From contig QOCQ01000009.1 in NCBI GenBank assembly GCA_003574685.1, positions 124,001 through 188,000 on the forward strand: a stretch of DNA of 64,000 bases, read 5' to 3'. Shown piece after piece: positions 41,263 to 63,902 of this stretch; position 1 is the stretch's first letter; each line of letters opens with the position of its first letter. A program made the position numbers and the translations under genes. This stretch comes from Rhodospirillaceae bacterium SYSU D60007. GTDB lineage: Bacteria > Pseudomonadota > Alphaproteobacteria > Reyranellales > Reyranellaceae. Under the pieces are notes generated by a model. It was given only the letters and a program-made list of their open reading frames with translations, did no database searches and was not told where the DNA came from.

Positions 41263-41490
41263 GCCCCGGTCGACGTGCTCAAGCACTACGCGTACATCGG
41301 ACGGCCTTTCGCTTGCCCATTATCCAGGCCAGCAATATTGGGAAGAGCGCGTCCGGAACGCTTGGGCCTTAGCGAACAGGGATCTGGCTTCAAGTGAACA
41401 GGTCAGGCCGGCTGCCGTGGCTCTTGCCCCCCGCGACGTTCCGTCGGAAATAGGGTGCCAGATGCCGGGACCAGATTGGGAGGACGCGTC

Positions 41491-42372: not shown

Positions 42373-42396
42373 GCTCACACACTCACAGGAACCCGA

Positions 42397-42975: not shown

Positions 42976-42994
42976 CCTGCCGCGCGACGGCCCT

Positions 42995-44134
42995 CTATGC
43001 AGCCGCCGTGGCTGCACGTCGCGGCCAGAGTCCCCGAAGGAACGTCCGGGCCGGCCGCTCCAGGAACTCGTAGCTCACGTGGCTCAGGGCCAGCACGATA
43101 ATGGTGACCACCAGCAGAAGGCCCAGCGACATCCAGCGCGTCCCCTCGATCAGGCCTTCGCGGATAGCGTCAAGGAAGGCGGCGCTGGCGAGGAGCACGA
43201 CGATGTAGTGGGTCATGTAGATGGAGTAGGAGATCCGGCCCAGCCACTGGAAAGGACCGCGCAAGAGCATCGGGCAGAGGCCGCCGCGGTCATGGCTGCA
43301 GGCCACGATCAGCACGGCGAAGGCGACGGGAGCACCGTAATCCATGTAGGGGACGCGGCGGGTCGAAACCGCCAGCATCACGAGCAACGCCGTGATCGCG
43401 ACAGCCTGCATCCATGTCAGCGCGCGGGTAGAAGGCGCCGGCAGCCTGATGCAGACACCGTACGCCACGACACCCAGGGCGAATCCCAGCACGTTGCGGA
43501 CAAATCCCCAGTCGTGCATCACGTGGATGCTGGGTGTCCTCGCAGCGAGCCAGGCATAGGCCGCAACTGCCAGCAGGACGGGGACGAGAAAGGGCCTGTC
43601 GCGTCCGATCGCGCCGGCCCAGAACAGCACGCCGAAGAAAACGTAGGTGTAGAGCTCGGTGCTGATGCTCCAGCTCGGGATGTTGAATGACGGCCCCTCG
43701 AAAAGGTGCAGCCCGTGCACCGCAAACAGGTTGGCCAGAAGCGACCAGACGTCGTTGTGGGCGAAGATTGGCCGCAGCATCGCCTCGAGGCTGCCGCCGC
43801 GCGCGGCAACAGCCGCCTGCAGGACAATGAACGCCAGCAGCGTCGCCAGATGAAGCGGATAGATGCGTGCGAGGCGCAGCCACAGGAAGCGGCCGTATGC
43901 CTGTCCGTCCCTGATGGCGTCACCATAGACGGCGTAGATGATGAAGCCGGAGAGGACAAAGAACAGGTCCACGCCGAGATAGAAATTGTCGAACCAGAAC
44001 GGCCAGCCCAGGCGGTCGTCGAGGTGATAGGCGACGATGGCAACCGCGGCGATGCCACGCAGCGCGTCGAGCGAGCGGAACCGCCTGCCTGCTGCCGCAC
44101 TACCGGGCGCGGCAGCCTTGTCCGGTGATCGCAT
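42995..44134 (-). CDS. Membrane acyltransferase, family 3 (OafA/YrhL-like)
   Basis: 379 residues, about ten membrane helices. The start FRSLDALRGIAAVAIVAYHL is the family hallmark, with the conserved Arg26 and His37. NFYLGVDLFFVLSGFIIYAV and RLARIYPLHLATLLAFIVLQ follow in the usual order. The family moves acetyl or other acyl groups from the cytoplasm onto sugars of lipopolysaccharide, glucans or Nod factors. Only the membrane part is present; there is no SGNH domain. The acceptor is unknown. It lies 7 bp after the phaC stop on the same strand. Confidence 0.92.
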   Translation of the reverse strand: MRSPDKAAAPGSAAAGRRFRSLDALRGIAAVAIVAYHLDDRLGWPFWFDNFYLGVDLFFVLSGFIIYAVYGDAIRDGQAYGRFLWLRLARIYPLHLATLLAFIVLQAAVAARGGSLEAMLRPIFAHNDVWSLLANLFAVHGLHLFEGPSFNIPSWSISTELYTYVFFGVLFWAGAIGRDRPFLVPVLLAVAAYAWLAARTPSIHVMHDWGFVRNVLGFALGVVAYGVCIRLPAPSTRALTWMQAVAITALLVMLAVSTRRVPYMDYGAPVAFAVLIVACSHDRGGLCPMLLRGPFQWLGRISYSIYMTHYIVVLLASAAFLDAIREGLIEGTRWMSLGLLLVVTIIVLALSHVSYEFLERPARTFLRGLWPRRAATAAA

Positions 44135-44141
44135 CAGGCTG

Positions 44142-45944
44142 TCAGTCGATGATGCGCAGCTTCACGTAGCTGCCGGGCGCGTCCTCGATCGGCGGCACCC
44201 CCCCTTTCGCTGGATCGCGTGCAGGCACCTTCGGGCCGCTGAGCGCGGAGAGCCACTTGTCCCAGTCGTGCCACCAGGAGCCCTTGTGTTCGGTGGCACC
44301 GGCCATCCACTCCTCGAATGTGGGCGGGTTCTTCGGCGTCTCATTGAGCCAGTGGTTGTATTTCTTGGCGCGGGGCGGATTGATGACGCCGGCGATATGC
44401 CCTGATCCGGCGAGCATGAACCGCACCGGTCCGGCCATGACCTGGGTCATCTTGTAGACCGATTTCAGCGGCGCGATGTGGTCCTCCTTGCCCGCCTGGA
44501 TGTAGCAGGGGATCGTCACCTTGCGCAGGTCGATGGGCTCGCCGGCGAGCGTGATGCCGCCAGGCTGCACCAGCAGGTTCTTCTGGTACATGTTGCGCAG
44601 ATAAAAGCTGTGCATCGCCGCCGGCAACCGCGTGGCGTCCGAGTTCCAGTAAAGCAGGTCGAAGGGGAAGGGGTCCTTCCCCAGCAGGTAGTTGTTGACG
44701 ACGAACGACCAGATCAGGTCGTTGGCGCGCAGCATGTTGAACGTCGTCGCCATTTCGGCGCCGTCCATATAGCCGCGCTCCTTGATCAGCGCCTCGATGT
44801 TGCGGATCTGGTCCTCATCGATGAACACTGTCAGCTCGCCGGCCTCGGTAAAGTCGACCTGGGCCGTGAAGAACGTGCAGGCGGCAATCCGGTCGTCGTG
44901 CTTCGCTGCCATCCAGGCCAGCGTCGCCGCCATCAGCGTGCCGCCGATGCAATAGCCGATCGCCGTCACATGGCGGGTGCCGATGGCCTTTTCAATCGCA
45001 TCGAGCGCCGCCAGCGGGCCTTCCAGCATGTAATCCTCGAAGGATTTCCCGGCGAGCTTTTCGTCGGGGTTCACCCAGGAGATCACGAACACCGTGTAAC
45101 CCTGGCCAACGGCCCAGCGGATGAACGAATTCTCCGGCTTCAGGTCGAGGATGTAGAACTTGTTGATCCAGGGCGGAACGATCAGCAGCGGCCGCTCGTA
45201 CACCTCCGCCGTGGTCGGGCTGTACTGAATCAGCTGCATCATCTCGTTCTGGAAGACGACCTTGCCGGGTGCGGTCGCCACATTGCGTCCCACCTGGAAT
45301 GCATTCATGTCGGTCTGGCGGATCGCCAGCCGGCCCTTGCCGCGCTCGAGGTCCTCCAGGACGTTGCGCAGGCCCTTCACCAGGTTCTCGCCGCCACTCT
45401 CCAGCGTCGCACGCAAGACCTGCGGATTGGTGGCCACGAAGTTGGTCGGGGCCATGGCGTCGACGAACTGGCGGATGTGGAAGTCGACCTTCTTGCGCTC
45501 GCGGTCCGACAGTCCCTCGACGTCCTTCGTGAGGCCGGTCAGCCAGCGCGACGTAAGCAGGTAGGCCTGCTTGATGTGATCGAAGATCGCCTCGTCCCGC
45601 CACGCCGGATCGGCGAACCGCTTGTCCTTCGGCGCATCGATCACCGGTTCGGCCGGCTTGCCCGCGAGACGGTCCGCCGTAGCCTGCCAGAGCCTCATGT
45701 ATTGCTGCCACAGCTCCATCTGGGCGGCGACCACCTTCTGCGGATCGGCCAGCAGCTTGGTCGTGAAATCGAGGAACGTGCCGGTAAGGTTCAGCACGTC
45801 GCCGGGCGGTGTGGCACCCTCCTTCGCCTGCTTCTCGGCAAACTCCTTCAGCAGCCGCTGGCTGCGTTCGGCGATGTCCTGCCATGCCGCCTGCATCGCA
45901 GTGGGGTCAGGCAGGCGAGGTCCCGGGCCTTGTGCTTCCGCCAT
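44142..45944 (-). CDS. phaC: Class I poly(3-hydroxyalkanoate) synthase
   Basis: 600 residues, normal for class I PhaC. It polymerises (R)-3-hydroxyacyl-CoA into storage granules. The N-terminal domain has QVGRNVATAPGKVVFQNEMM then QLIQYSPTTAEVYERPLLIV and PPWINKFYILDLKPENSFIR. The lipase-box-like nucleophile is TAIGYCIGGTLMAA with Cys332. The Asp lies in IQAGKEDHIAPLKSVYKM and the catalytic His in LAGSGHIAGVINPP. No phaA, phaB or phasin gene is next to it. Confidence 0.96.
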   Translation of the reverse strand: MAEAQGPGPRLPDPTAMQAAWQDIAERSQRLLKEFAEKQAKEGATPPGDVLNLTGTFLDFTTKLLADPQKVVAAQMELWQQYMRLWQATADRLAGKPAEPVIDAPKDKRFADPAWRDEAIFDHIKQAYLLTSRWLTGLTKDVEGLSDRERKKVDFHIRQFVDAMAPTNFVATNPQVLRATLESGGENLVKGLRNVLEDLERGKGRLAIRQTDMNAFQVGRNVATAPGKVVFQNEMMQLIQYSPTTAEVYERPLLIVPPWINKFYILDLKPENSFIRWAVGQGYTVFVISWVNPDEKLAGKSFEDYMLEGPLAALDAIEKAIGTRHVTAIGYCIGGTLMAATLAWMAAKHDDRIAACTFFTAQVDFTEAGELTVFIDEDQIRNIEALIKERGYMDGAEMATTFNMLRANDLIWSFVVNNYLLGKDPFPFDLLYWNSDATRLPAAMHSFYLRNMYQKNLLVQPGGITLAGEPIDLRKVTIPCYIQAGKEDHIAPLKSVYKMTQVMAGPVRFMLAGSGHIAGVINPPRAKKYNHWLNETPKNPPTFEEWMAGATEHKGSWWHDWDKWLSALSGPKVPARDPAKGGVPPIEDAPGSYVKLRIID

Positions 45945-46093
45945 CTGATGTTCCTCCCGGAGAGCGCCGATTCTCTTGTCAGATCATTGCCTTTATGCCG
46001 ATTAATACGATAATCGCCCAAGGCAGGCCGTCAGGTTAGGCAGCCGGCCGGCAGGCGTCAAACCAATGCTCGAACGGCTCAGGGTTTCGGAGA

Positions 46094-46555
46094 ATGGAAC
46101 ATAGCTATCGCTCACGATCGCGCCTGCCCGCCATGCTGGCCATCGCCATGTTGGCGAGCGAACTTGCCGGCTGCGGCTGGTTCGAATCAAGCCCGCCCGC
46201 CCCGCAGACTGCCGACGATCAGCGCGGCTACCCCAATCTCGGGACCGTGCCGCCCCGGCCGCCGACCTCCACCGCTGCGGACCGCGCCGCCGTCGCCGGC
46301 AGGCTGGAATCCGATCGCGCCCGCGCCCGTTACAGCGACGATACCCGTGCCATCGACGAGACGCGCGGTTCGACCATCGGCTCACTGGTGAGACCGAGGC
46401 CGCCTGCACCGCCGGAGCCGGCGACGCCGCCAGGGCCACCGGAACCTCCGGCCGGCGCAACACCGCCAACACCGGTGCCGTTGCCGTCAGCGCCGGACGC
46501 ATCGCCACCGCCGCCAGCGCCGGAGCCGCCACCGACGCCGCAGCCGCGGCCATAG
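46094..46555 (+). CDS. Putative proline-rich lipoprotein
   Basis: 153 residues. A leader with LPAMLAIAMLASELAGCGWF has a lipobox (ELAGC) near residue 27, so the mature protein likely starts at an acylated Cys. The middle is charged (RLESDRARARYSDDTRAIDE) and the last 50 residues are almost all Pro, Ala, Glu and Gly, giving an extended tail that may cross peptidoglycan. No homologue is recognised. It stands alone between phaC and the aminotransferase. Confidence 0.6.
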   Translation: MEHSYRSRSRLPAMLAIAMLASELAGCGWFESSPPAPQTADDQRGYPNLGTVPPRPPTSTAADRAAVAGRLESDRARARYSDDTRAIDETRGSTIGSLVRPRPPAPPEPATPPGPPEPPAGATPPTPVPLPSAPDASPPPPAPEPPPTPQPRP

Positions 46556-46650
46556 GGCACTGAAATCGCCCTCGACTTCTGAAAGCACTGGCGGCAGAAA
46601 GCCTGCCCCCGACCCGCCGCGTCGGCACGGCCCCGAAAAAGGCAACCGCC

Positions 46651-47907
<1,257 letters not shown>

Positions 47908-47919
47908 GGATCGGTTGCC

Positions 47920-49218
47920 ATGTCCCAACCGGTTCGTATCGGCATCGCCGGCCTTGGCACTGTCGGCGCCGGCACCGTCAAGCTGCTGCGCGCGCATGCC
48001 GAGCTGCTGGCACAGCGCAGCGGCCGTGCGCTGCACGTGATCGCCGCCAGCGCGCGCGATCTCAAGAAGGACCGCGGTCTCGACCTGTCGGGTATCCGCC
48101 TGGAGAGCGATCCGCTGGCGCTGGCGCGGGCATCCGATATCGATGTCATCGTCGAGGTGATCGGCGGCAGCGACGGCATTGCGCGGGCTGTCATCGAGAC
48201 GGCGATCGCCAATGGCAAGCATGTGGTGACGGCCAACAAGGCGCTGCTGGCATTGCACGGCAGCGCCATCGCGCAACAGGCCGAGGCAAAGGGCGTGATC
48301 CTGGCCTTCGAAGCCGCGGTCGCGGGCGGCATCCCGATCATCAAGGTTCTGCGCGAGGGGCTGGTCGGGAACCGCGTGCGACGCCTCTACGGCATCCTTA
48401 ACGGCACCTGCAACTACATCCTGACCACAATGCGCGAGAGCGGCCGCGAGTTCGCCGATGTGCTCGCGGAAGCGCAGAAGCTGGGCTACGCCGAGGCTGA
48501 TCCCGGCTTCGACATCGACGGTATCGACGCGGCCCACAAGCTGGCGTTGCTGACCGCCGTTGCCTTTGGCCGCCCCGTGGATTTTTCCGGCGTTTACATC
48601 GAGGGCATCCGCAAGGTCGGTGCGCACGACATCCGTTTCGCCGAAGAGCTCGACTGCCGCATCAAGCTGCTGGGCCTGGCGCGCGAGACGCCGCACGGCA
48701 TCGAGCAGCGTGTGCATCCCTGCCTCGTTCCGAAGAACGCACCGATCGCCTCGGTGGACGGTGTGCTCAATGCTGTGGCGGTGGAGGGCGATTTCGTCGG
48801 ACCGACGGTGTTCGAAGGCCGCGGTGCGGGCGCGGGACCGACAGCCAGCGCCGTGGTCGCCGACCTCGTCGATGTTGCCCGCGGCCACGGCCTGCCTGCG
48901 TTCGTGCTGCCGGCGGCGCGGCTGAGCGCAACGCCCGGCTCGCCCATCGACCGGCATCGTGGCGCCTACTATTTGCGTCTGATGGTGCTGGACAGGCCGG
49001 GGGTGATCGCCGACGTGACGGCGGCGCTGCGCGACGAGCAGGTTTCGCTGGAGTCCATGCTGCAGCATGGTCGCGCGCGCGGGCCGGACGACACCGTGCC
49101 CGTGGTGCTCACCACCCACGAAACCGAGGAGGCGGCGATGCAGCGTGCGCTGAAGCGCATCGCCGGCTTGGCGGCAATGCGCGAAGCCCCCACATTGATC
49201 AGGATCGAGGATCTGTAG
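47920..49218 (+). CDS. hom: Homoserine dehydrogenase
   Basis: 432 residues. It reduces aspartate semialdehyde to homoserine on the path to threonine and methionine. The NAD(P) motif is IGIAGLGTVGAGTVKLLRAH at 6-25. VVTANKALLALHGSAIAQQA, LYGILNGTCNYILTTMRESG and AEADPGFDIDGIDAAHKLAL are the catalytic motifs, with the Asp and Lys in the last one. A C-terminal ACT domain begins near 350 (YYLRLMVLDRPGVIADVTAA), consistent with threonine feedback. Operon with the aminotransferase and glpX. Confidence 0.96.
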   Translation: MSQPVRIGIAGLGTVGAGTVKLLRAHAELLAQRSGRALHVIAASARDLKKDRGLDLSGIRLESDPLALARASDIDVIVEVIGGSDGIARAVIETAIANGKHVVTANKALLALHGSAIAQQAEAKGVILAFEAAVAGGIPIIKVLREGLVGNRVRRLYGILNGTCNYILTTMRESGREFADVLAEAQKLGYAEADPGFDIDGIDAAHKLALLTAVAFGRPVDFSGVYIEGIRKVGAHDIRFAEELDCRIKLLGLARETPHGIEQRVHPCLVPKNAPIASVDGVLNAVAVEGDFVGPTVFEGRGAGAGPTASAVVADLVDVARGHGLPAFVLPAARLSATPGSPIDRHRGAYYLRLMVLDRPGVIADVTAALRDEQVSLESMLQHGRARGPDDTVPVVLTTHETEEAAMQRALKRIAGLAAMREAPTLIRIEDL

Positions 49219-49233
49219 CGCGCGGAGGAAACG

Positions 49234-50223
49234 ATGGCCAACTCGCAGACCAAGATGGATCGCAACCTTGCGCTCGAGGCGGTACGGGTGACCGAGGCGG
49301 CGGCGCTGGCGGCCTCCAAGCTGATGGGCCGCGGCAACGAGAAGGCGGCCGACCAGGCGGCGGTCGACGCCATGCGCCAGGCGCTCAATGCGCTCAACAT
49401 CGAAGGCACCGTGGTGATCGGCGAGGGCGAGCGCGACGAAGCGCCGATGCTCTATATCGGCGAAAAGGTCGGCACCGGGCAGGGGCCCCTGATCGATATT
49501 GCGCTCGATCCGCTGGAAGGCACGACCATCACCGCCAAGGGCGGCCCCAATGCGCTGGCGGTCATCGCCATGGCGGAGCATGCCAACTTCCTCAATGCGC
49601 CCGACGTGTACATGGACAAGATCGCCGTCGGTGGCGGCCTGCCCGAGGGGGTCGTGGACCTCGACGCGGCGCCGGGAGAGAACCTGCGGAATCTCGCCAA
49701 GGCCAAGGGCGCGGAGGTTTCTGACCTCGTCGTCTGCATCCTCGACCGGCCCCGGCATGCCGAGCTGATCGCCAAGGTGCGCGAGGCGGGTGCGCGCATC
49801 ATGCTGATCGGCGATGGCGACGTCTCGGGCGTGATCGCCACATCGCAACCCGACTCGGGCGTGGACATCTACATGGGTTCGGGCGGTGCGCCGGAGGGCG
49901 TGCTGGCGGCGGCGGCGCTGCGCTGCATCGGCGGCCAGATGCAGGGCCGTCTGCTGTTCCGCAACGACGATGAAAAGTCACGCGCGGCGCGCTGGGGCAT
50001 CAAGGACCTGAACCGCAAGTACGGCATGCTCGACATGGCCAAGGGCGATGTGATGTTCGCCGCCACGGGCGTGACCAACGGATCGATGCTCAAGGGCGTG
50101 CGGCGCTTCGCCAACGGCGCCGAGACGCATTCGCTGGTGATGCGCTCAAAGACCGGCACCGTGCGCTACGTCGAGGCCAGGCACAATTTCACGGTCAAGA
50201 GCGGCCTGCCAAGTTGGGCCTAG
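49234..50223 (+). CDS. glpX: Class II fructose-1,6-bisphosphatase
   Basis: 329 residues. NLALEAVRVTEAAALAASKL at the N-terminus, VVIGEGERDEAPMLYIGEKV (metal Glu/Asp) and IALDPLEGTTITAKGGPNAL (the D-P-L-E-G-T metal motif) are all present. MGSGGAPEGVLAAAALRCIG and MFAATGVTNGSMLKGVRRF follow. The enzyme makes fructose-6-phosphate in gluconeogenesis. It lies 15 bp after hom, an order conserved in many alphaproteobacteria, with recJ next. Confidence 0.96.
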   Translation: MANSQTKMDRNLALEAVRVTEAAALAASKLMGRGNEKAADQAAVDAMRQALNALNIEGTVVIGEGERDEAPMLYIGEKVGTGQGPLIDIALDPLEGTTITAKGGPNALAVIAMAEHANFLNAPDVYMDKIAVGGGLPEGVVDLDAAPGENLRNLAKAKGAEVSDLVVCILDRPRHAELIAKVREAGARIMLIGDGDVSGVIATSQPDSGVDIYMGSGGAPEGVLAAAALRCIGGQMQGRLLFRNDDEKSRAARWGIKDLNRKYGMLDMAKGDVMFAATGVTNGSMLKGVRRFANGAETHSLVMRSKTGTVRYVEARHNFTVKSGLPSWA

Positions 50224-50242
50224 TCTTCGTCACGCCGGGAGC

Positions 50243-50355
50243 GCGCCACTCCAGTGGCGCATTGGCGAAGCGCAGCGAAGCCAAGTTTTGCGACGGTACT
50301 GGCACGACCCGGGGGTTGCCCTGCGCTGCCGCTCCGGGTAGGGCGCCACTGGAGT
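50243..50355. repeat. Short inverted repeats after glpX
   Basis: GCGCCACTCCAGTGGCGC at 50243-50260 is a palindrome with 8-bp arms. ACTCCAGTGGCGC at 50248-50260 recurs inverted at 50343-50355. The inner hairpin is close to the glpX stop and may be a terminator. The space up to the recJ start (50224-50675) holds this, the next composite repeat and no gene that I can see. Confidence 0.6.
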
Positions 50356-50418
50356 TTGCCACCGGCGGGGCCGACCCTCGGGTATGAAACGATCGGCCGG
50401 CAGTGACTGATCGTTCTT

Positions 50419-50538
50419 CCTTCCCCCGGAGGGGGAGGGTGGCGCGCAGCGCCGGAAGGGGGATGCCTCAACAAGCACGACGCCGCAGGTGTTGCACCAT
50501 GCCCCTTCCGCCCTTCGGGCACCTTCTCCGGGGGAAGG
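50419..50538. repeat. Composite palindromic intergenic repeat, copy 6
   Basis: 120 bp in the orientation of copy 1, slightly worn: the right hairpin has lost a few bases (CCTTCTCCGGGGGAAGG) and the left one has GGGGGAGGG. It lies upstream of recJ. Confidence 0.85.
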
Positions 50539-50675
50539 TGACGTCAGGCGCTCCGACCGCAAGTTTCCTACCTTTGTTTCTTGTTGGTGGCGCGCTCCCA
50601 GCCGATGAGTTATTGGCGACTCCCACAGCCTGGGCGGCTTGCGGCGCGGACGCCGCGATGTTTGGCTGCGCGGGC

Positions 50676-52502
50676 ATGACGCTGCTGCTTGAACCGCCGC
50701 CTGTCGCCGGGGCGCCGGCCTTTCTCGGAGTCGAACGGTCGTTGTCGGGGCGGCGCTGGATTTCGCGCGCGGGTGAGGGCGCCGAAGTGATGGCGATTGC
50801 GCAGCGCCATGGCCTGCCCGAACCGCTCGCACGCCTTTTGGCGGCACGCGGCGTTGCTTGCGAGGCCGTGCCGGAATTCCTGGAGCCGACGCTGCGGCAG
50901 GGTCTGCCGGATCCCGCTCATCTCAAGGACATGGATGCGGCTGTCGGGCGGCTGGTGCGGGCGGTCCAGCAGGGAGAACGCATCACGGTGTTCGGCGACT
51001 ACGACGTCGATGGCGCCACCTCGGCGGCATTGCTGCTGCGCTTCTTCCGCGCCGCCGGCGGCACGATCGACGCCTATATCCCGGATCGGCTGAAGGAGGG
51101 CTACGGCCCCAACGCACCGGCGCTGCAGCGACTGCGTGCGCAGGGAAGTGCTGTCGTGGTCACGGTCGATTGCGGCATCACCGCTTTCGAAGCGCTGGAG
51201 GCGGCGGCGCAAACCGGCCTGGATGTGATCGTGATCGATCATCACAAGGCGGAGCCGCGTCTGCCGCAGGCGCTGGCCGTGGTCGATCCCAACCGGCAGG
51301 ACGAAGAAAGCCCGCACACGCAAATGGCGGCCGTGGGTGTGGCGTTCCTCCTGGTTGTCGGCGTCAATCGCGCCTTGCGCGAAGCCGGCTGGTACGGCGC
51401 GGCACGGCCCGAGCCCGATCTGCGCCAGTGGCTCGATATCGTGGCACTGGGCACGGTGTGCGACGTGGTGCCGCTGACCGGCGTCAACCGTGTCCTGGTG
51501 CGCCAGGGAATGAAGATCCTGAACGATCGCAGCAACCCCGGCATTGCGGCGCTGGCCACGACGGCACGGCTCAGCGAACCGATGGATGCCTGGCACCTCG
51601 CTTTCATCCTGGGGCCACGCGTCAATGCCGGCGGCCGGGTGGGAGAGGCGGCGCTTGGCGCGCGTCTGCTTGCCACCGACGACGCGCAGGAGGCGATGGG
51701 GCTGGCGATGCGGCTGGACGCCTTCAACGCGGAGCGACGCGCGATCGAGCAGGCCGTGCTGGAGATGGCGGTGGCGCAGGTCGAGGCGCTGGGTGCCCTG
51801 CCGCCGGTGATCGTGGCCATCGGCGAAGGCTGGCATCCGGGTGTGATCGGCATTGTCGCCAGCCGTCTTGTCGAGCGCTTCCATCGGCCGGCCTTTGTGA
51901 TCGGCATGGACGGCGATATCGGCAAGGGATCGGGCCGCTCGCTGCGCCCGCTCGACATGGGCGCGATGGTGATTGCGGCGCGGCAGCGCGGCTTGCTGGT
52001 CAATGGCGGCGGCCATCCCATGGCGGCCGGGCTCACCGTGCAGCGGACGCGGCTGGCCGAGCTGGTTGGCTTTTTCACTGAAGAAACGATTGCCGCGATC
52101 GGTGCCCGGCCGGCCGCGCGTACGCTGGCCGTGGATACGGCCGTCCAGGCCCGCGCCGTCAGCGTCGATCTGGTGCGCCTGCTGGAGCGCGTCGGGCCGT
52201 TCGGCGTGGGCAACCCCGAGCCGCGCATCGTGCTGCCGCATGTGCGCGCGGGCTGGTCGCGGCCCGTGGGCGAGGCGCATGTCCGGTGCACGCTGGTGGG
52301 CAGCGACGGCGGCGCGGTGCAGGCCATCGCCTTCCGCGCCGCCGGCAGTCCCTTGGGCGCCGCGCTGATGGACCCGACCTCGCCGACGTTGCACGTCGCC
52401 GGCACATTGCGCATCGACCGCTTCAACGGCAGCGAAACCGTCAGCCTTCACGTGGAGGACGCAGCTTCGGTGCGGATGGCGGCGGACGTGCCAACTGCTT
52501 GA
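50676..52502 (+). CDS. recJ: Single-stranded-DNA exonuclease RecJ
   Basis: 608 residues from the ATG at 50676 (MTLLLEPPPVAGAPAFLGVE); an ATG at 50658 is an alternative and the longer frame runs into a repeat. RecJ degrades ssDNA 5' to 3' in recombination and mismatch repair. DHH motifs are ITVFGDYDVDGATSAALLLR, VVVTVDCGITAFEALEAAA and VIVIDHHKAEPRLPQALAVV. The DHHA1 part has LVNGGGHPMAAGLTVQRTRL (the GGGHxxAAG motif), and the C-terminal OB fold starts near VGPFGVGNPEPRIVLPHVRA. Follows glpX in the same direction. Confidence 0.95.
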   Translation: MTLLLEPPPVAGAPAFLGVERSLSGRRWISRAGEGAEVMAIAQRHGLPEPLARLLAARGVACEAVPEFLEPTLRQGLPDPAHLKDMDAAVGRLVRAVQQGERITVFGDYDVDGATSAALLLRFFRAAGGTIDAYIPDRLKEGYGPNAPALQRLRAQGSAVVVTVDCGITAFEALEAAAQTGLDVIVIDHHKAEPRLPQALAVVDPNRQDEESPHTQMAAVGVAFLLVVGVNRALREAGWYGAARPEPDLRQWLDIVALGTVCDVVPLTGVNRVLVRQGMKILNDRSNPGIAALATTARLSEPMDAWHLAFILGPRVNAGGRVGEAALGARLLATDDAQEAMGLAMRLDAFNAERRAIEQAVLEMAVAQVEALGALPPVIVAIGEGWHPGVIGIVASRLVERFHRPAFVIGMDGDIGKGSGRSLRPLDMGAMVIAARQRGLLVNGGGHPMAAGLTVQRTRLAELVGFFTEETIAAIGARPAARTLAVDTAVQARAVSVDLVRLLERVGPFGVGNPEPRIVLPHVRAGWSRPVGEAHVRCTLVGSDGGAVQAIAFRAAGSPLGAALMDPTSPTLHVAGTLRIDRFNGSETVSLHVEDAASVRMAADVPTA

Positions 52503-52544
52503 TTCGCCGGAGCGTACACGGTAGATCGACCGCGCCCGCTAGCC

Positions 52545-52620
52545 GTCCCCATCGTCTAGAGGCCTAGGACACCAGCCTTTCACGTTGGTAACACGGGTTC
52601 GAATCCCGTTGGGGACGCCA
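52545..52620 (+). tRNA. tRNA-Glu (anticodon TTC)
   Basis: 76 nt with CCA encoded. The acceptor GTCCCCA pairs with TGGGGAC; the anticodon arm is CCAGC-CTTTCAC-GTTGG with TTC in the loop; the T arm is ACGGG-TTCGAAT-CCCGT. The last 17 bp double as the left attachment site of the island that follows. Confidence 0.95.
52604..52620. repeat. Island attachment site attL (tRNA-Glu 3' end)
   Basis: TCCCGTTGGGGACGCCA, the 3' end of the tRNA. It is identical to 62927-62943. Direct repeats of a tRNA end around an integrase gene are the mark of site-specific integration by a tyrosine recombinase. The tRNA stays intact. Confidence 0.92.
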
Positions 52621-52851
52621 ATCCTTTCTGAGCGACAAGAATCAAGAAGATTCAAAGGCCTAAATGATGATGCGATTCACGGTTAGGGGAAAGACTTAGG
52701 GGATAGGGGAGTTTTCCACAGCCTCCTAAGTACCTACCAATCCGTTGGTTCAGGTTGGTTCATTTTCGGCGCCCCGTCATCGTGACTTTCACATAGGCAG
52801 GCTGTTAGCGTTCGCCTGACCTGAGAAGCAATCGTCTAGTTGGGGTGAGCG

Positions 52852-54311
<1,460 letters not shown>

Positions 54312-54518
54312 CCCCCACTTCACGAGCAGCAGGAGATTGTCGACGAGATTGAAATCTTCTCCGCACGTATAGACGACCTCACACGTGCCGCCCAGAAAGC
54401 GATCTCTCTCCTCCAGGAACACCGGTCAGCGTTGATCACGGCTGCCGTTACCGGCCAAATCGACTGTAACGCCGTTCGAGCTGCGCTTACGAGGGGAGTT
54501 GGTGCTTTCTGCAACTAA
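54312..54518 (+). pseudogene. Remnant of HsdS specificity subunit (C-terminal 68 residues)
   Basis: In a different frame from hsdM, the sequence codes PPLHEQQEIVDEIEIFSARI then DDLTRAAQKAISLLQEHRSA and LITAAVTGQIDCNA, the conserved C-terminal helix and tail of HsdS. The two DNA-recognition domains and all upstream parts are missing. The join with hsdM at about 54311 has no intergenic gap, so one deletion removed the end of hsdM and nearly all of hsdS. Confidence 0.8.
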
Positions 54519-54555
54519 CGGTAAGCTTACCCTCAGGGCGAGACCGGGTGGGGTG

Positions 54556-56456
54556 ATGGCGGTCGATCATAAAGAGAAAGGTTTCGAGGCGGCTATTGAG
54601 GCGGACCTCTTGTCACTGCGGGGATACCAGAAGAGACCCGCAGCGGCCTTCAATGGCACACTGGCGCTTCAACCCGCCGATCTCGTTGGTTTCTTCAAGG
54701 CCACACAGCCTGACGCCTGGAACAAGCTCCAGACGATCTACGGTGCCCAAGTCGAGACAAAGGTCCCGGCCTACGCCGCCCAGCAGCTCGATCAGCAGGG
54801 TACGCTTAATGTGCTGCGCAGGGGCATCTCGGATCGCGGTGTAAAGCTTCAGCTCGCGTACTTTCGGCCCTCCAGCGGTCTCAACGCTAAAGCACAGGCG
54901 CTTTACGACCAGAATGTCTTGACCGTCACTCGGCAGGTCCATTACGCGACCAAGGACGCGAGCCAGTCTATTGACGTGGTGCTCTGCCTCAACGGCATTC
55001 CTGTCGCCACGGCGGAACTGAAGAACCCCTTCACCAACCAAACGGTGAAGCACGCGATCAATCAATACCGCTTCGACCGTGATCCCGGGGAACCCCTGCT
55101 GAGGTTCAAGACTCGGGCACTCGTCCACTTCGCGGTCGATCCTGACCAAGTCTACAAGGCAACCAAGCTTGCCGGGAAGGACACCAAGTTTCTGCCCTTC
55201 AACAAGGGGCGCGATGGTGGGGCAGGCAACCCCGACAATCCGAATGGCTATCGGACGAGCTACCTGTGGGAATGGGTGTGGTCGAAGGATGTATGGCTGG
55301 ATATCCTTGCCCGGTTCATCCACCTCCAGCGCGAGGAGCGGGACGGCAAGGTCCGCGAGACTCTGATCTTTCCGCGCTACCACCAGCTCGATGCCGTGCT
55401 GAAGCTCATTGAGGATGCGCGATTAGGTGCTGGCCGAAACTGCCTGATCCAGCATTCGGCAGGATCGGGAAAGTCGAACTCCATCGCGTGGCTCGCACAT
55501 CGCCTGGCAAATCTGCACGACGCCAAGGACCAGTCGGTTTTTGACTCGGTTCTGGTGATCACCGACCGTCGCATTCTCGATAACCAGCTCCAGGACACCA
55601 TCTTTCAACTTGACCATCAGAGCGGGGTGGTGGAACGGATCAGCCATAGAATCGGTGCCAAAGGTGCCCAGTTGGAAGCGGCCCTCAAGGCAGGCAAGCG
55701 GATCATCGTTGTTACCCAGCAGACTTTCTCGGCGGACCGATCGCTGAACCTGATCGGCAGTCTGCCTGATCGCAGATACGCCGTGATCATCGATGAAGCC
55801 CACAGCGGTCAGACTGGGGAAGGCGCGACCAATGTCAAGAAAGTCCTGTCTACGGGTACCCCTAAGGATGACGAAGAGGAGAACGGAGGAGAGGAGGAAG
55901 ACGAGGTTCTGAAGGCCATCGCTGCACGAGGACCTCAACCGAATCTCAGTTTTTTCGCCTTCACCGCAACGCCAAAGAAGCGGACCTTGGAACTCTTTGG
56001 GCGACCTGGGTCAGATGGCAGACCACAGGCTTTTCATCTCTACTCAATGCGCCAAGCCATCGAGGAGGGCTTCATCCTCGACGTGCTGGCCCACTACACC
56101 ACCTACAAGACCTACTACCGCCTGACCAAGGCCATCGAGGATGATCCGACTATAGACAAGGCGAAGGCACGTACATCCATTGCGCGGTTCGTCAGCCTTC
56201 ATCCTCACAACCTGGCCGAAAAGACCCAGGTGATGGTGGAGCACTTCAGGAACTTCACACGACAGCAGATCGGAGGTCGGGCGAAAGCCATGCCTACTAT
56301 CGGCTCCAGAAGACAAGTGAGGGCAAGGCTTCACTTGCACCAGGGGAGACGGCGCCAGTCACAGGCCCTGGAGAAGTCGGCACGGTGCGGCAAAAGGACG
56401 ATCAGGCTGCGCCGCTGTCAGAGATCATCAAGACCATTAACGACCGGTTTGGCGAG
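54556..56456 (+). pseudogene. hsdR: Type I restriction endonuclease HsdR, internally deleted and truncated
   Basis: Starts at the ATG at 54556 (MAVDHKEKGFEAAIEADLLS). The PD-(D/E)xK nuclease domain is present: SIDVVLCLNGIPVATAELKN with the E-x-K. The motor has Walker A in CLIQHSAGSGKSNSIAWLAH, DEAH in VIIDEAHSGQTGEGATNVKK and motif III in FFAFTATPKKRTLELFGRPG. After NFTRQQIGGRAKAM (about 56288) the sequence jumps, in another frame, to AYYRLQKTSEGKASLAPGET, which belongs much further down the family. It ends again at IKTINDRFGE (about 56456). Several hundred residues are missing, so translocation and cutting must be lost. Confidence 0.85.
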
Positions 56457-56930
56457 CTGCTCTCGACCCTTGTCACTCGCGAGATCAACCCAGGGAAGGG
56501 GTTTGCCTTTGGCATCTCCTTTGGCTCTCTCTTGGTCGCCCAACTGTGCCAAGCGCGGCACAAAGAGGATGTTCTCTCCGGCGACCTTGGGATCGATGAT
56601 GTCTCGATAGCCCTCCGCAAGAATCTTTAGACGCGCCTCAAGGTTGGACTTTGGCATCTCTCCGTCGATGTAAAGGACACGGCGAGGTTTATTGGTCTGC
56701 CACTGGCCAACCTCGCCACCTCCGGCGATAACCCACGCCAGGGTCATGGCGAACCAGGTTTTACCTACACCAGTATCCGCATAGATCATCACGTTCTGTC
56801 CTTCGTGAAGCCAAGGCGACAACACGAACTCAGGCACGGGGCTATTGCTGGATAGCAGATCACGGCCGGTGAATGAGGCATAAGGAATGCGGCCCTTGCT
56901 CTCTGAGAGCCGCGCCAGATCAGTTTTCAT
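56418..56930 (-). CDS. AAA-family ATPase (RepA-like), C-terminally truncated
   Basis: Starts MKTDLARLSESKGRIPYASF after AAAGGAGAGCA. Walker A is GVGKTW within MIYADTGVGKTWFAMTLAWV (51-58) and Walker B RRVLYIDGEMPKSNLEARLK (84-94). This is the plan of plasmid/phage RepA-like (AAA_25) helicases that open replication origins. The native sequence continues to LPWVDLASDKGREQL, then hits hsdR remnant sequence read backwards and stops 11 codons later. Full-length relatives are much longer, so this gene has lost its end. Confidence 0.75.
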   Translation of the reverse strand: MKTDLARLSESKGRIPYASFTGRDLLSSNSPVPEFVLSPWLHEGQNVMIYADTGVGKTWFAMTLAWVIAGGGEVGQWQTNKPRRVLYIDGEMPKSNLEARLKILAEGYRDIIDPKVAGENILFVPRLAQLGDQERAKGDAKGKPLPWVDLASDKGREQLAKPVVNGLDDL

Positions 56931-56939
56931 TGCTCTCCT

Positions 56940-57101
56940 TTAAGTTTGGAAATCCAGGGTCGGCCGCTGTCTGCTGCTGTCTTTGGTCAATCCAGCGTGC
57001 TTCCAAGCCCGCGACAGGCGAATGCGATTGGGATCGCTGCTGACAACGACTGCTTCCTGGATAAGTAAGCTTTTAATCGGCGTCTCTCGTGCTGAGGACA
57101 A
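56940..57101 (-). CDS. Possible 53-residue protein upstream of the AAA ATPase
   Basis: Starts at a TTG (57101) after AATAGGA and runs MSSARETPIKSLLIQEAVVV then SSDPNRIRLSRAWKHAGLTK, ending in TLDFQT. The stop lies 10 bp before the ATPase start. It is in the position where such islands often carry a small excisionase or repressor, but it is too short and plain to assign. The rest of 56931-57441 shows no recognisable gene. Confidence 0.3.
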   Translation of the reverse strand: MSSARETPIKSLLIQEAVVVSSDPNRIRLSRAWKHAGLTKDSSRQRPTLDFQT

Positions 57102-57441
57102 TTCCTATTGTTGAATCAATGAGGTAGCGGTCTCCTGAGTTAGCAACCGGAAAAACTGCCGCGTTTGGTCTTTTACGAGCGCCCACCCATCGGAGCCCAT
57201 CCGCGTTACTTGCTTTCAACTCGATGCTTGGCCCCAGATCGCCGGCTGTCCTCTTTCTTCTCCCGCGCCGCCTCTCATGATCCCCCGTATCCCCGGAAGC
57301 TTGCAGAGCGGCGGGCAGATCGCGGGTCGCTGTGGCCTCCTAGGGTTCCCACGACCCCGGTGACGACTCAGGTAGTACTGTCACATTGACAGCAACGGAC
57401 GATGCGGCTAATGAGACGACCATCCAGAGAGGGGGCGGAAG

Positions 57442-58134
57442 ATGGCTACAGGTCGCTTCGTGGCGTACTACCGGGTCTCTACGGCAAGACAGGGACGCAG
57501 CGGCCTCGGCCTGGAGGCCCAACGGGACGCCGTGGGGAACTACCTGAATGGCGGCGACTGGAAGCTGATCGCAGAGTTCACCGAGGTAGAGTCCGGGAAG
57601 AGGGACGACCGCCCCGAGCTGGCCCGTGCCCTGGCTCTGTGCCGCGTTCGCAACGCTACCCTGGTGATTGCCAAGCTTGACCGCCTGGCCCGCAACGTCG
57701 AGTTCATTGCCCGCCTGATGAACAGCGGGGTGGACTTCGTGGCCGTGGACATGCCCCAAGCCAACCGTCTCACGGTTCACATCCTCGCAGCCATCGCTGA
57801 GCACGAGCGGGAGATGATCTCGGCCCGGACCAAGGCCGCCCTGGCCCGCGCAAAGGCCCGTGGAGTCACCCTTGGGGGAGACCGAGGGAATCTCCCAAGG
57901 ATCGCGAAACGAGGCGCCAAGGCCAGCGCAGAGGCCCGTAGCGAGGCTGCGGCGAAGCGGGCAGGGGACTTGGCGGAAGTGATCGCTGATCTGCGCAAGC
58001 AGGGCGCTACCTCCCTTCGCCAGCTCGCGGCAGGGCTCACCGAAAGGGAGATACCGGCACCACGAGGAGGCCCCTGGAGTGCCATGCAAGTCTCTCGGGT
58101 CATTCGGCTGGTGGAGACAAATGTAACGCCCTAG
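57442..58134 (+). CDS. Serine recombinase (resolvase/invertase family)
   Basis: 230 residues. The N-terminal catalytic domain has FVAYYRVSTARQGRSGLGLE with nucleophile Ser13, then LVIAKLDRLARNVEFIARLM and FVAVDMPQANRLTVHILAAI, followed by AEHEREMISARTKAALARAK, all standard. The C-terminal part (about 170-230) includes LRKQGATSLRQLAAGLTERE and RGGPWSAMQVSRVIR, a recombinase/HTH-type DNA-binding region. The size fits a small phage-type recombinase or resolvase. It may act on DNA flanking the module downstream. A GGGGGCGGAAG site precedes the ATG. Confidence 0.9.
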   Translation: MATGRFVAYYRVSTARQGRSGLGLEAQRDAVGNYLNGGDWKLIAEFTEVESGKRDDRPELARALALCRVRNATLVIAKLDRLARNVEFIARLMNSGVDFVAVDMPQANRLTVHILAAIAEHEREMISARTKAALARAKARGVTLGGDRGNLPRIAKRGAKASAEARSEAAAKRAGDLAEVIADLRKQGATSLRQLAAGLTEREIPAPRGGPWSAMQVSRVIRLVETNVTP

Positions 58135-58730
58135 CGGGCGGAATATCCTTCGTGGGGCGTTGTGGTCCGTTCAGCAGGGTGCCGACAAACCAAGGGTTTC
58201 TCGCGACACGCCGACGAGACAGCAGGGCGCCTCCAGATTTCGTGGGAGTCCTGACCTCCCTAAGGGTGTCGCTTCGGCCCCACCCCCACACCCCTCTTTC
58301 AAAATGCCGGTAAAGGGCCGCTTGTTGTTGTTAGATGCCACTTATCGTCGCGGGCGCGTCCAACTCCAGGGCATCCGAGACTACAACAGCCAACGCTACA
58401 ACCGCTCCGACAATTCCCCCGCTACCCGGAACCAGTTGGAGAACGCATCCCGATCCGCTTCTAGCGGGAACGCGTATCGGGTCCGGTTGGGAGGATCAGT
58501 AGTGGCCCAACTCGCGTGTCGGCCAGGCGCGAGTTGTTCAGCCTTTTTCGTGGAGCAGGCGGAACCGCTCTGGACCCCAACCGCCATCCAGCATGTGTAC
58601 CTCGATCCGACAGCGGTAGTCACGCTTGTACGTGTCGTGGGGATTGGTCCGGCGAAAAGTTTCTCGCTGGTGCAAGTTGAGTAGATTCCCACAACCATTT
58701 TGATGCAAACTGTGTTGGGGGTGAAACTCA
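58135..58730. other. Gap between recombinase and membrane protein genes, no secure gene
   Basis: 596 bp. Several short frames read on both strands but none has good start signals and conserved motifs at once. The only clear structure is a hairpin at 58508-58536. The stretch just before 58731 (TGTTGGGGGTGAAACTCA) serves as the ribosome site of the next gene, so its promoter should lie in this gap. Confidence 0.5.
58508..58536. terminator. Hairpin, possible terminator
   Basis: CAACTCGCG and CGCGAGTTG form a perfect 9-bp stem with an 11-base loop. On the plus strand TTCAGCCTTTTT follows, so it could end transcription from the recombinase side before the next operon. Confidence 0.4.
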
Positions 58731-59210
58731 ATGCCAGACGCCAACAGCGAAAAACCAAAGGACTATTCGAGTAGCCGCGAGAAGCATCTCGACTGGATTG
58801 AGAAGGTCATCGAACGGATGTCCAACAACTCCAGTTCGATGAAGCGGATGTGCCTGCTCGTAGCTGGGGCAGCGATCGGGCTCTGGTCCCAGCGTCGATC
58901 TCCCGAAGTCCTGTACGGGGCGATTGGGATCACCACCGCTTTCTGGACACTCGATGCCTTCTACCTTCGTCTAGAACGGCGATTCCGACTGCTCTTCGAT
59001 GAAGTCCGGCAGGAGTCAGCCAGCACTCCTCCGGACTACCGAATGAAACCGCCCGTCCTGCATGACAGGCGGAAAACCCCCTTCAAATGGCTGTTGTGGT
59101 GTTTTCTGTCCGGATGCTCCGTCACGGTGTTTCCGCTGTATGCGGTCCTGGTCGTGATTCTGTTCGTTCTAGTATTCCGATCACAGGTGTTAGCATGCCC
59201 AACCTTGTAG
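58731..59210 (+). CDS. Membrane protein partner of a TIR-like protein (candidate effector)
   Basis: 159 residues. The first 37 are hydrophilic (SSREKHLDWIEKVIERMSNN). Hydrophobic segments lie at about 38-53 (MKRMCLLVAGAAIGLWSQ) and 60-79 (LYGAIGITTAFWTLDAFYLR), followed by a charged helix (LERRFRLLFDEVRQ). A last hydrophobic stretch of about 31 residues at 119-149 (WLLWCFLSGCSVTVFPLYAV and on) is one long or two short helices. The FWTLDAFYLRLERRFRLLF pattern resembles small proteins that I recall beside DUF1863 genes. Its stop overlaps the next start by 16 bp, so they are one unit. A membrane-damaging effector role is inferred. Confidence 0.82.
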   Translation: MPDANSEKPKDYSSSREKHLDWIEKVIERMSNNSSSMKRMCLLVAGAAIGLWSQRRSPEVLYGAIGITTAFWTLDAFYLRLERRFRLLFDEVRQESASTPPDYRMKPPVLHDRRKTPFKWLLWCFLSGCSVTVFPLYAVLVVILFVLVFRSQVLACPTL

Positions 59211-59830
59211 ATTCCGGCGTGAGGGAGCCGGTACGTCGAGTTTTCTTTAGCTTCCACTACCAGCGCGACATTTTCCGGGTACACGTAATCAAGAACCATT
59301 GGGTTCCTACGGGATCACGGATGGCCGCGCGCTACTTCGACGGGTCATTGGAGGAGGAGTCCAAGAGGCAGAATGATTATGCGATCAAGCAAATGATCGG
59401 GAGGGCTCTCAACGGGTGCAGCGTGACCTGCGTGCTGATCGGTGCCGAGACGTACACTCGCCGTTGGGTTGATTACGAAATCTTCAAGAGCATTCAAGAA
59501 AGGAAGGGGCTGTTCGGCATCCGAGTCCACCAAGTGAAAGATGCTCGCACGCAGCAACCAGACAGTTGGGGCACAAATCCATTCTGGACGTTGGGGTTCG
59601 GAACGCACCAAAATAGCGATCTGCTTTGGCCGAAGGTACGACTTACATCGGGATGGGCCGACCACTCTCTGTTTACCGATGGCGTGCCAAGGGATGCCGC
59701 TCCATACCTGCCGGCCCAGGGCACTGTGTTGTTCAGCGATCTATTCTCCGTCTACGACTGGGTAAACGATGATGGTCCAAGAAATTTCCCGAACTGGGTT
59801 GGTGCTGCTGCTCACCAAGCAGGACGCTAA
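59195..59830 (+). CDS. TIR-like (DUF1863/ThsB-type) protein
   Basis: 211 residues from the ATG at 59195. The TIR-like core opens with RRVFFSFHYQRDIFRVHVIK (residues 14-33), continues with TCVLIGAETYTRRWVDYEIF (78-97) and KGLFGIRVHQVKDAR, the signature of MTH538/ThsB proteins. In Thoeris, ThsB senses phage and makes a cyclic ADP-ribose-type signal from NAD. Glu95 in WVDYEI is the likely catalytic acid by position. The C-terminal part (about 125-205) with SVYDWVNDDGPRNFPNWVGA is also typical of the group. Its partner is not a SIR2-type ThsA but the membrane protein just upstream. Confidence 0.88.
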   Translation: MPNLVDSGVREPVRRVFFSFHYQRDIFRVHVIKNHWVPTGSRMAARYFDGSLEEESKRQNDYAIKQMIGRALNGCSVTCVLIGAETYTRRWVDYEIFKSIQERKGLFGIRVHQVKDARTQQPDSWGTNPFWTLGFGTHQNSDLLWPKVRLTSGWADHSLFTDGVPRDAAPYLPAQGTVLFSDLFSVYDWVNDDGPRNFPNWVGAAAHQAGR

Positions 59831-61470: not shown

Positions 61471-62832
61471 TTACTCGACCTTCACTTCGAGTCCGGGGTA
61501 TCTGAGCTTTCCAATGGCTTTTTGGCGCTGCTCAAAGGACGTGCCGCCGCTGTAAGTTCCGTAGGTAATTCGGGGTTTCTCATGCCCCACTATGTCCGCG
61601 GTGACGTTCTCTGGAACGTATGCTCGCTCCAACTGGGTCGTTACCGTCTTGCGGATCGAGTGGAAGACGTGCCGGTCCGAGAACCCTAGCTTCGTCTTTA
61701 GCCGACCGAAGCGCTTGCCGATCCCGTTGGAGCGTTTGCCGTACTTACCCTTGGTATTCAGGCCGGATAGCAGGTAACCATCAGTGCTCTTCTGACAGAG
61801 GCGCTTTACCACGCCCTTCAGGGAGGAGTGGATAGGCACCTCACGGATGCCTGCTTTGGTCTTGCTATCCGCTATCCTGAAGGCCTTGTCGGACACATCG
61901 GCAACCTTCAAGGCACACAGCTCTTCGAGGCGTGCCCCTGTGTAGGCAGCGAGGGCGATCAACTGAGCAAGCGCTGTGTCTCCATCATCAATTGCGGTCT
62001 GATAGAGCGTAGTGACCTCCTGGTCCTCAAACGGAACGTAGCCACGCCCATTCTTGCCATTGGTTGACTCCTTTGCCCGCTGAGCAACCTCAAGCCCGTC
62101 GAAGGGGTGACGTTCCCCATCGACGTACTCTCGATCCTGCAACCATTTCCAGAAGCGGCGAATCGACGTGAGCTGCCTGGTGATGGTGGCGGGGGCTACT
62201 CCTGCTTCGAGAAGTCGCTGTATCCATTCGTTAACAGCCTTTCGCGTGACCCTTTCCGCTGTTGGGAACTCGCTAACGAACTTCTCAACCGTGCTGACTG
62301 CCATGTCCGCTGTCTTAGCCTCAACCCCCAACGCATATGACTGGCGCCACTCAGATACGAGCGGCTGTAGGAGGATGGACTCGCCAAAGGCGGTTTTCAA
62401 ATAGCGCTTGGCGGGTTCTCCTCCAATGGCCTCAATTGCCCTTCGGCGATCCTGACAACGATTGAATTCATTTTGGAGGTCGATGCGTTCGCTGGGGGCC
62501 ACAAAACGCCTCTCTGCGCTGTCGAGGATTTCATCGACAACGTCATGGATCAGGAAATCGTCGCCGGAGGCTTTCTCCCTACGCTCGGCCAGTTGCAGTC
62601 GAGTCAGAAAGGCAAGCGCTTCGGCGTCGGCACCCGTTTCCTGATTGCGGGCAGCTCGCACCCTGGCCCTGAAATGGTCTAGGGCGACCAAGGCCCGAAG
62701 CCGAGCGTCGCGGGCGATCGCAGTTCCGAGGGAAACCCATTCCTCTGACTTCCCGAATGCAGATCGTATGTCTCGGGGCACCTGGAAGCGGGCGTAATAG
62801 TGCCCAGAACGAATCTTAAGATAGCTGCCCAT
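61471..62832 (-). CDS. Tyrosine-type site-specific integrase
   Basis: 453 residues. The arm-binding N-terminus reads LKIRSGHYYARFQVPRDIRS. The core-binding helices are around 190-260 (RVTRKAVNEWIQRLLEAGVA, PATITRQLTSIRRFWKWLQD). The catalytic residues are Arg in AAYTGARLEELCALKVADVS, Lys in DSKTKAGIREVPIHSSLKGV, HSIR at 391-394 (HVFHSIRKTVTTQLERAYVP), His417 (VGHEK) and Tyr427 (TYGTYSGGTS). It reads inward from attR, 95 bp away, and should drive integration and excision at the tRNA-Glu end. Confidence 0.95.
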   Translation of the reverse strand: MGSYLKIRSGHYYARFQVPRDIRSAFGKSEEWVSLGTAIARDARLRALVALDHFRARVRAARNQETGADAEALAFLTRLQLAERREKASGDDFLIHDVVDEILDSAERRFVAPSERIDLQNEFNRCQDRRRAIEAIGGEPAKRYLKTAFGESILLQPLVSEWRQSYALGVEAKTADMAVSTVEKFVSEFPTAERVTRKAVNEWIQRLLEAGVAPATITRQLTSIRRFWKWLQDREYVDGERHPFDGLEVAQRAKESTNGKNGRGYVPFEDQEVTTLYQTAIDDGDTALAQLIALAAYTGARLEELCALKVADVSDKAFRIADSKTKAGIREVPIHSSLKGVVKRLCQKSTDGYLLSGLNTKGKYGKRSNGIGKRFGRLKTKLGFSDRHVFHSIRKTVTTQLERAYVPENVTADIVGHEKPRITYGTYSGGTSFEQRQKAIGKLRYPGLEVKVE

Positions 62833-62926: not shown

Positions 62927-62943
62927 TCCCGTTGGGGACGCCA
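62927..62943. repeat. Island attachment site attR
   Basis: TCCCGTTGGGGACGCCA, an exact copy of the tRNA-Glu 3' end at 52604-52620, marking the far end of the island. Bases on either side differ from those at attL. Confidence 0.92.
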
Positions 62944-63128
62944 GAGGTCGGCTGGAAATACCATTTTCGCGAGCAAGCGGTTTTTTCCGGCGAATCGGTC
63001 CGAAGCAGACCATCGCTTTATTTCAATCTGTTACGTGATCTGCTGTCGTTCGCTCCTGACGAGGAAGGTCCCTCGCAGCAAGGGCGCCATCATCCTTGCC
63101 CGGCGCTCACATTGGGAGGGTCCGTTCC

Positions 63129-63641
63129 TTGACTGCAAGTGCAAGGGTTTTGAAGCAATCGATTTCCTGTATGTGCTTTCTTGTGCCAGGCCTGTTCGGG
63201 ACAGCCGCATCGGCCCAGACGGCAACGGGTTCGTTCAACGTCCGTATCACCATCCAGGCGGATTGCCGTATCAACTCCGCCACCGCCCTGGATTTCGGCA
63301 CGACCGGCGTCATTGCCGCCAATATTGATCAGAACAACCTGGTCTCGGTCCAGTGCACCAACGGAACGGCCTACAATGTCGGCCTCAGCGCCGGCGCCGG
63401 GTCCGGCGCTACCGTGTCGAACCGGCTGATGACCGGGCCCGGCGGTGCCACCGTGAGCTACAATCTCTATCGGGACGCGGCGCGAACCCAGCAATGGGGA
63501 ACGACTGTCGGCACCAACACCGGGACCGGTGCGGGCAATGGTCAGATCCAGACGATACCGGTGTACGGACGGGTGGCGCCGCAGGCGACACCGGCGCCGG
63601 GCGTGTACACCGACACCATCACCATCACAGTGACGTTCTGA
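63129..63641 (+). CDS. Spore coat U (SCPU) domain secreted protein
   Basis: 170 residues from a TTG at 63129 with GGGAGGG upstream; a longer form from a TTG at 63096 has no better signal. A leader (SCMCFLVPGLFGTAASAQ) ends near residue 30. The mature part has the SCPU pattern: GSFNVRITIQADCRINSATA then LDFGTTGVIAANIDQNNLVS and VQCTNGTAYNVGLSAGAGSG, with the Cys pair, and the end IPVYGRVAPQATPAPGVYTD then TITITVTF. SCPU proteins are pilin-like subunits of Csu-type chaperone-usher pili. No chaperone or usher gene is in the window. Confidence 0.85.
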   Translation: MTASARVLKQSISCMCFLVPGLFGTAASAQTATGSFNVRITIQADCRINSATALDFGTTGVIAANIDQNNLVSVQCTNGTAYNVGLSAGAGSGATVSNRLMTGPGGATVSYNLYRDAARTQQWGTTVGTNTGTGAGNGQIQTIPVYGRVAPQATPAPGVYTDTITITVTF

Positions 63642-63726
63642 AGCGGGTTTGCGCCGCGCGCAGCGACTTCACGTGCTGCGTTGCTTCGGTTGGTGCCGTA
63701 GGCATTCGCAATAAGACCTGAGGCTC

Positions 63727-63747
63727 CCTTCCCCCTCCGGGGGAAGG
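63727..63747. repeat. Half copy of the composite repeat (single hairpin)
   Basis: CCTTCCCCCTCCGGGGGAAG plus G, the right-hand hairpin of the composite repeat on its own, 85 bp after the SCPU stop. It could act as a terminator for that gene. Nothing else recognisable lies in 63642-63902. Confidence 0.75.
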
Positions 63748-63902
63748 CAGGGCTGGCCCGTTCGGCATTGCTGGTGGTCTTTTGCGGCGGATGGGCCGTG
63801 CTCCACGATATGGTCACTGCGCGTGGGCCAACCTCCGATGGCATGCTCTGGATCGGTGAGTACGAGCCAACCATTTCCCCGGAGGTCGGAGGCCAGGGAT
63901 CG

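Follow-up and report, generated by a model that had tools for sequence, protein, structure and literature searches.

A probably inactive remnant of a type I restriction-modification operon, with hsdM joined to the tail of hsdS, in a tRNA-Glu island

We analysed a stretch of 64,000 nucleotides from Rhodospirillaceae bacterium SYSU D60007 (GenBank assembly GCA_003574685.1, contig QOCQ01000009.1, positions 124,001 to 188,000 of the forward strand), which is called the window below. It contains a damaged type I operon. This operon sits, together with an integrase and other defence-gene homologues, in an island of 10.3 kb that is bounded by 17-bp repeats at a tRNA-Glu gene (Table 1). The marks of a tRNA-associated island are present: each end carries a 17-bp direct repeat of the tRNA 3' end, and an integrase lies next to the right one. 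The operon begins 231 bases past tRNA-Glu. The GC content of the island is 57.7%, that of the left flank (40000-52544) 66.4% and that of the right flank (62944-64000) 61.5%. A genome of the same genus matched the window at 49224-50219 and 50718-52621, and the homology stops at the tRNA end; neither the rest of the island nor the right flank was matched within the 17-kb stretch fetched from that genome. Scans for promoters and terminators returned fewer sites than were found in shuffled sequences.

Table 1. Features of the tRNA-Glu island and the broken type I operon (window coordinates)
Feature	Position	Strand	Support
tRNA-Glu(TTC), island insertion site	52545..52620	+	ARAGORN
Left 17-bp direct repeat (attL-like), tRNA 3' end	52604..52620	+	
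hsdM remnant	52852..54309	+	486 codons; Pfam HsdM_N 5.8e-27, N6_Mtase 1.1e-61; tblastn with L005; alignment A1
Joint J1, hsdM/hsdS	54306..54311	+	DNA comparison with L005 and other relatives
hsdS remnant (final 70 codons plus stop; frame differs from that of hsdM)	54306..54518	+	tblastn with L005 HsdS; weak Methylase_S profile end
hsdR 5' part (HSDR_N, SWI2_SNF2)	54556..56292	+	Pfam; identity to L005 HsdR; start codon by homology
Joint J2, internal hsdR deletion, frame changed	56289..56295	+	Comparison with L005
hsdR 3' piece (AYYRL...NDRFG), out of frame with 5' part	56292..56453	+	tblastn E 5.5e-17
Joint J3, position approximate	56450..56460	.	End of hsdR homology beside opposite-strand AAA_25 gene
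AAA_25 ATPase gene	56454..56930	-	Pfam AAA_25 8.2e-15
Serine recombinase (Resolvase)	57442..58134	+	Pfam 1.5e-30
PDC-M50A (PADLOC candidate) ORF, membrane-protein-like	58731..59210	+	PADLOC 1.2e-24
ThsB-like TIR ORF (PDC-M50B / ThsB)	59087..59830	+	Pfam ThsB_TIR 3.2e-22; PADLOC 2.9e-52
UzuA-like gene, GIY-YIG family by plasmid annotation	60422..61256	-	PADLOC 8.1e-25; plasmid homologues; tblastn
Tyrosine integrase, adjoins right repeat	61471..62832	-	Pfam Phage_integrase 2.6e-16
Right 17-bp direct repeat (attR-like)	62927..62943	+	

The hsdM open reading frame, as listed for the window, spans 52852-54372 with a TTG start and 506 codons. Pfam and alignment A1 showed the N-terminal helical domain and the N6 adenine methylase domain, and the protein matched PDLC03029 (MTase_I) of PADLOC at 1.5e-235. 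The closest complete operon among the matches listed was that of Microvirga massiliensis (L005), which encodes an HsdM of 672 residues (74% identical to that of the window), an HsdS of 445 and an hsdR ORF of 1041 codons. Both tblastn and DNA comparison followed the homology with L005 HsdM to PERIAR, where it ended at 54309. Beyond PERIARF, the hsdM frame is HsdS DNA read in the wrong frame; in another frame this DNA encodes PLPPLHEQQEIVDEIEIFSARIDDLTRAAQKAISLLQEHRSALITAAVTGQID..., which matches HsdS C-termini, and the HsdS tail (PLPPLHEQQEIV...AAVTGQID...) starts at 54306 and ends with the stop codon at 54516-54518. When residues 383-435 of L005 HsdS were compared with this tail by tblastn with composition correction off, the identity was 55% (E 4e-13). 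A loose genome search aligned positions 135-164 of the 168-position Methylase_S profile with 54306-54398 (G000:C58:178306-178398 in the assembly), at 13.5 bits and E 0.21, which is below the cut-off. The last 70 codons are all that is left of HsdS in the window; the target recognition domain(s) are absent, as is the presumed HsdS-docking C-terminal tail of HsdM.

The joint J1 was mapped against the complete hsdMS locus of L005. The window follows L005 hsdM up to CGC at 54307-54309 and L005 hsdS from CCG at 54306-54308; the bases CCGC at 54306-54309 are compatible with both sides, and the assignment of the next bases, to 54311, is uncertain. L005 has 1,685 bases between the breakpoints, which corresponds to about 1.69 kb missing from the window and to 180 of the 672 HsdM residues and about 382 of the 445 HsdS residues. 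As L005 is distant, the four-base overlap is only suggestive of homology between the breakpoints. No repeat of 14 bases or more spans any joint in the present sequence, and the repeat nearest to J1 (54278-54296) ends ten bases before the overlap. A previous sequence-only reading of this DNA had proposed that PERIARF is followed by the C-terminal tail of HsdS in another frame, and that the end of hsdM and nearly all of hsdS were lost in a single clean deletion; it had suggested a search for short repeats at the breakpoints. The frame-shifted HsdS tail was confirmed by the L005 alignments and by the end of the Methylase_S profile, and the extent of the loss by the bases missing in comparison with L005. 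One event is the simplest explanation of one joint, although this is unproved and the position of the cut is ambiguous within the four shared bases; the possible homology at the breakpoints is this overlap of about four bases.

Two more joints follow J1, and all three lie within about 2.2 kb. The hsdR of the window shows 60% identity to L005 HsdR. The homology continues as far as AKAM, which ends at 56292, and resumes at AYYRL...NDRFG in a different frame; 807 bases (~0.8 kb) of the L005 gene are missing between the two parts. The only match to the missing segment in the same genome was the hsdR of another type I system, on contig C37 (44% identity). Clear hsdR homology ends at ~56453 beside the antisense AAA_25 gene. 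With the internal deletion at ~56292 and the end of homology at ~56453, a complete HsdR is absent from the window. Because the profile match of the AAA_25 gene covers positions 16-108 of 195, this joint with hsdR has probably removed the 3' end of the gene. A search of the plasmid set at E 1e-5 returned no relative of this gene, and the position of J3 is therefore approximate. When 52630-58140 was compared with plasmids by megablast, six records were matched, none with 80% coverage. Neither stops nor frameshifts interrupt the 486 codons left of hsdM or the 579 codons at the start of hsdR, which fits recent decay; alternatively, the undamaged frames could reflect a retained truncated product.

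To place this lesion among related operons, we used HsdM relatives encoded in at least 594 genome-contig stretches, the best 80 of which were kept. Both of the C-terminal HsdM motifs tested were found in 68 of 86 relatives outside the source genome, one in 15 and neither in 3, in a sample that was mostly picked by similarity to the truncated HsdM and is not random. The HsdM tail was present in all 26 relatives of alignment A1, which had been chosen for long HsdM frames. With the L005 HsdM tail as query, the best match in the source genome had E 0.8 and nothing convincing was detected. The same query matched all five control genomes, which had been selected for their known related hsdM genes (best E 5.2e-37, 1.8e-36, 8.8e-32, 3.1e-31 and 6.4e-23); the matches to the two operons of the C37 type had E 6.4e-23 and 1.4e-21.

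The three relatives with neither tail motif in the HsdM frame (L033, L068 and L089) gave no match to the window HsdS tail at E 1. In L033 (Acidovorax sp. MR-S7, 8001-9506), the related hsdM ends after 494 matched residues, so that this is another broken type I operon; it was rejected as a parallel case because no HsdS match lies behind the shortened gene. L068 was not accepted, since its sequence ends at the contig end, 163 bases past the HsdM match. In L089 (genome G026, 1453-4207), the related hsdM is frameshifted while the HsdM tail and hsdS are still present, and it was likewise rejected. An hsdM joined to an HsdS remnant was thus not seen in L033 or L089, L068 being cut off by the contig end.

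It is highly likely that the locus is the remnant of a type I operon of the order hsdM-hsdS-hsdR in the tRNA-Glu island, broken by at least three joints and dead. Most likely, the operon died by ordinary decay within a mobile defence island. The three joints would most simply represent three deletions. The first (J1) would have removed the HsdM tail and nearly all of HsdS, the second (J2) an internal part of hsdR, and the third (J3) the end of hsdR, probably together with that of the neighbouring AAA gene. Methylation needs an M2S complex. Because HsdS and the HsdM tail are missing, no M2S complex would be expected to form, and therefore neither methylation nor restriction would be expected. 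The type I system of the window is thus very probably non-functional. We infer this loss of activity, the recent decay and a deletion mechanism in which ordinary end-joining or replication slippage may have acted at very short homologies.

The second type I system of the genome lies on contig C37 (L093, G000:C37:1-14000, 3004-5509, minus strand). Its HsdM is 48% identical to that of the window. Its hsdS is half-length and its frame opens inside the end of the hsdM frame, and its hsdR frame is open over 1001 codons. The relative of this system in genome G056 has an HsdM frame of 707 codons from stop to stop and an HsdS frame of 478, and the relative in G071 has frames of 849 and 474 codons; compared with these, the C37 system has lost the tail of HsdM as well as the first half of HsdS. 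The N6_Mtase family has five matches in the genome, including those of the window and C37; the other three are partial (C11, 1.4e-8; C3, 1.6e-7; C16, 3.5e-4). A third match of the SWI2_SNF2 helicase type is present at G000:C55:7203-7679 (E 2.6e-8). Searches of the genome with Methylase_S at E 0.001 and at E 5 detected only C37 and the window remnant. A full hsdS that could complement the window system was sought elsewhere in the genome and none was found, the C37 hsdS belonging to a system that is also damaged.

HsdM tail and HsdS sequence have thus been lost in both of the type I systems found in this genome. This raises the alternative that such loss is a recurrent and favoured way of permanently switching off type I systems, which occurred here independently in each system at the HsdM/HsdS boundary and abolished restriction and methylation in one step. 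We regard this as unlikely. There are two cases only, and in an operon of ~6 kb the boundary can easily fall within a 1-2 kb deletion, so that the occurrence of the same lesion twice may be due to chance. Moreover, other losses in M or S would equally disable restriction, and the window operon bears hsdR lesions as well. A repeated route of type I loss is thus an unproven hint, and only a survey in which such joints proved over-represented would give weight to the pair of lesions.

The assembly is a draft of 58 contigs, and J1 might have been produced by assembly or binning, which we consider very unlikely. No sign of assembly collapse was found: the two sides of J1 share about four bases, which is too few for a collapse, and searches of the rest of the assembly detected no copy of the missing HsdM tail, no further hsdS and no full HsdS. 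In addition, the host contig spans 193,893 bases, and three separate joints occur in a single operon.

The sequence-only reading had further regarded the product as a DNA-binding-less methylase with intact catalytic motifs. The motifs are indeed kept: DPACGTGG and NPPF, which we take to be methyltransferase motifs I and IV, remain in the window HsdM. The open frame still includes these motifs along with the N-terminal domain and the greater part of the catalytic domain, and the protein might on these grounds still act as an HsdS-independent or low-specificity methylase. The loss of 180 C-terminal residues argues against a working enzyme. We modelled full-length L005 HsdM by AlphaFold2 with alignment A1 (27 rows; mean pLDDT 86.1). 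The model predicts a strand at residues 622-632 followed by a terminal helix at 649-671, whereas the window HsdM ends at the equivalent of residue 492. In VIA-align, the rows for type I M subunits and M.TaqI extended to model residues 635-649 (7vru_B, Z 36.4, 433 residues, 2.8 A; 2adm_A, Z 20.8, 213 residues, 2.5 A), and those for BsaXI and 2f8l ended near 453-456; these ranges give the first and last aligned residue only. On the basis of these ranges, residues ~622-640 probably belong to the catalytic fold, and the helix 649-671 would be the HsdS-docking tail. According to a study of PacII, deletion of both M-subunit tails disrupts the M1M2S complex (PMC9613975), and a review states that neither S nor M alone binds DNA (PMC3874165). 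The truncation removes the presumed docking tail and probably also one strand of the catalytic fold, the tails are needed in PacII, and M does not bind DNA by itself; the shortened HsdM is therefore expected to be inert, and residual activity appears highly improbable. Complementation in trans by the half-length hsdS of C37 is scarcely credible, since the C37 system is more distant and its own HsdM is also tailless, no other Methylase_S match outside the window was detected at E 5, and the window HsdM itself is without the docking tail.

The window operon shares with type I restriction-modification operons the gene order M-S-R, HsdM_N and N6_Mtase in HsdM, and HSDR_N and SWI2_SNF2 in HsdR, and differs from them in that the tail of HsdM, almost the whole of HsdS and two parts of HsdR are absent. 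Island-borne hsdM and hsdS genes with defects have been published before: truncated hsdM, premature stops or absence of the genes are reported for the vSa-beta island of Staphylococcus aureus (PMC6805111). vSa-beta resembles the window in having defective type I genes within a genomic island, but in the window a deletion joins hsdM to the hsdS tail. We found no description of such a joint in the titles and abstract openings listed from the open-licence literature. Half-HsdS systems (truncations of EcoR124I and EcoDXXI, and NgoAV) also have a shortened HsdS, but, according to the review, they keep a complete TRD (PMC3874165), whereas the window has none; the C37 half-HsdS resembles these types in length, although the C37 HsdM is without its tail. 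Modification patterns typically diverge by gain and loss of such systems, as stated in another review (PMC12707154).

Caution is called for, because domain searches accept an hsdM as a type I methylase when its frame is open and its catalytic motifs are intact. Looking for the HsdM tail as well is an easy additional step when type I systems are annotated. In this genome, that step suggests that both of the type I systems found are unable to methylate.

Two further observations concern the right part of the island. The homology of the UzuA-like gene is split over two frames near 60720, and its plasmid homologues have 343 and 279 codons; a full-length gene was rejected because the homologues are longer and the homology goes on in another frame. 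The PDC-M50A ORF overlaps the ThsB-like TIR ORF (58731-59830), whose true start is probably later than 59087, and the two form a PADLOC candidate phage-defence pair.
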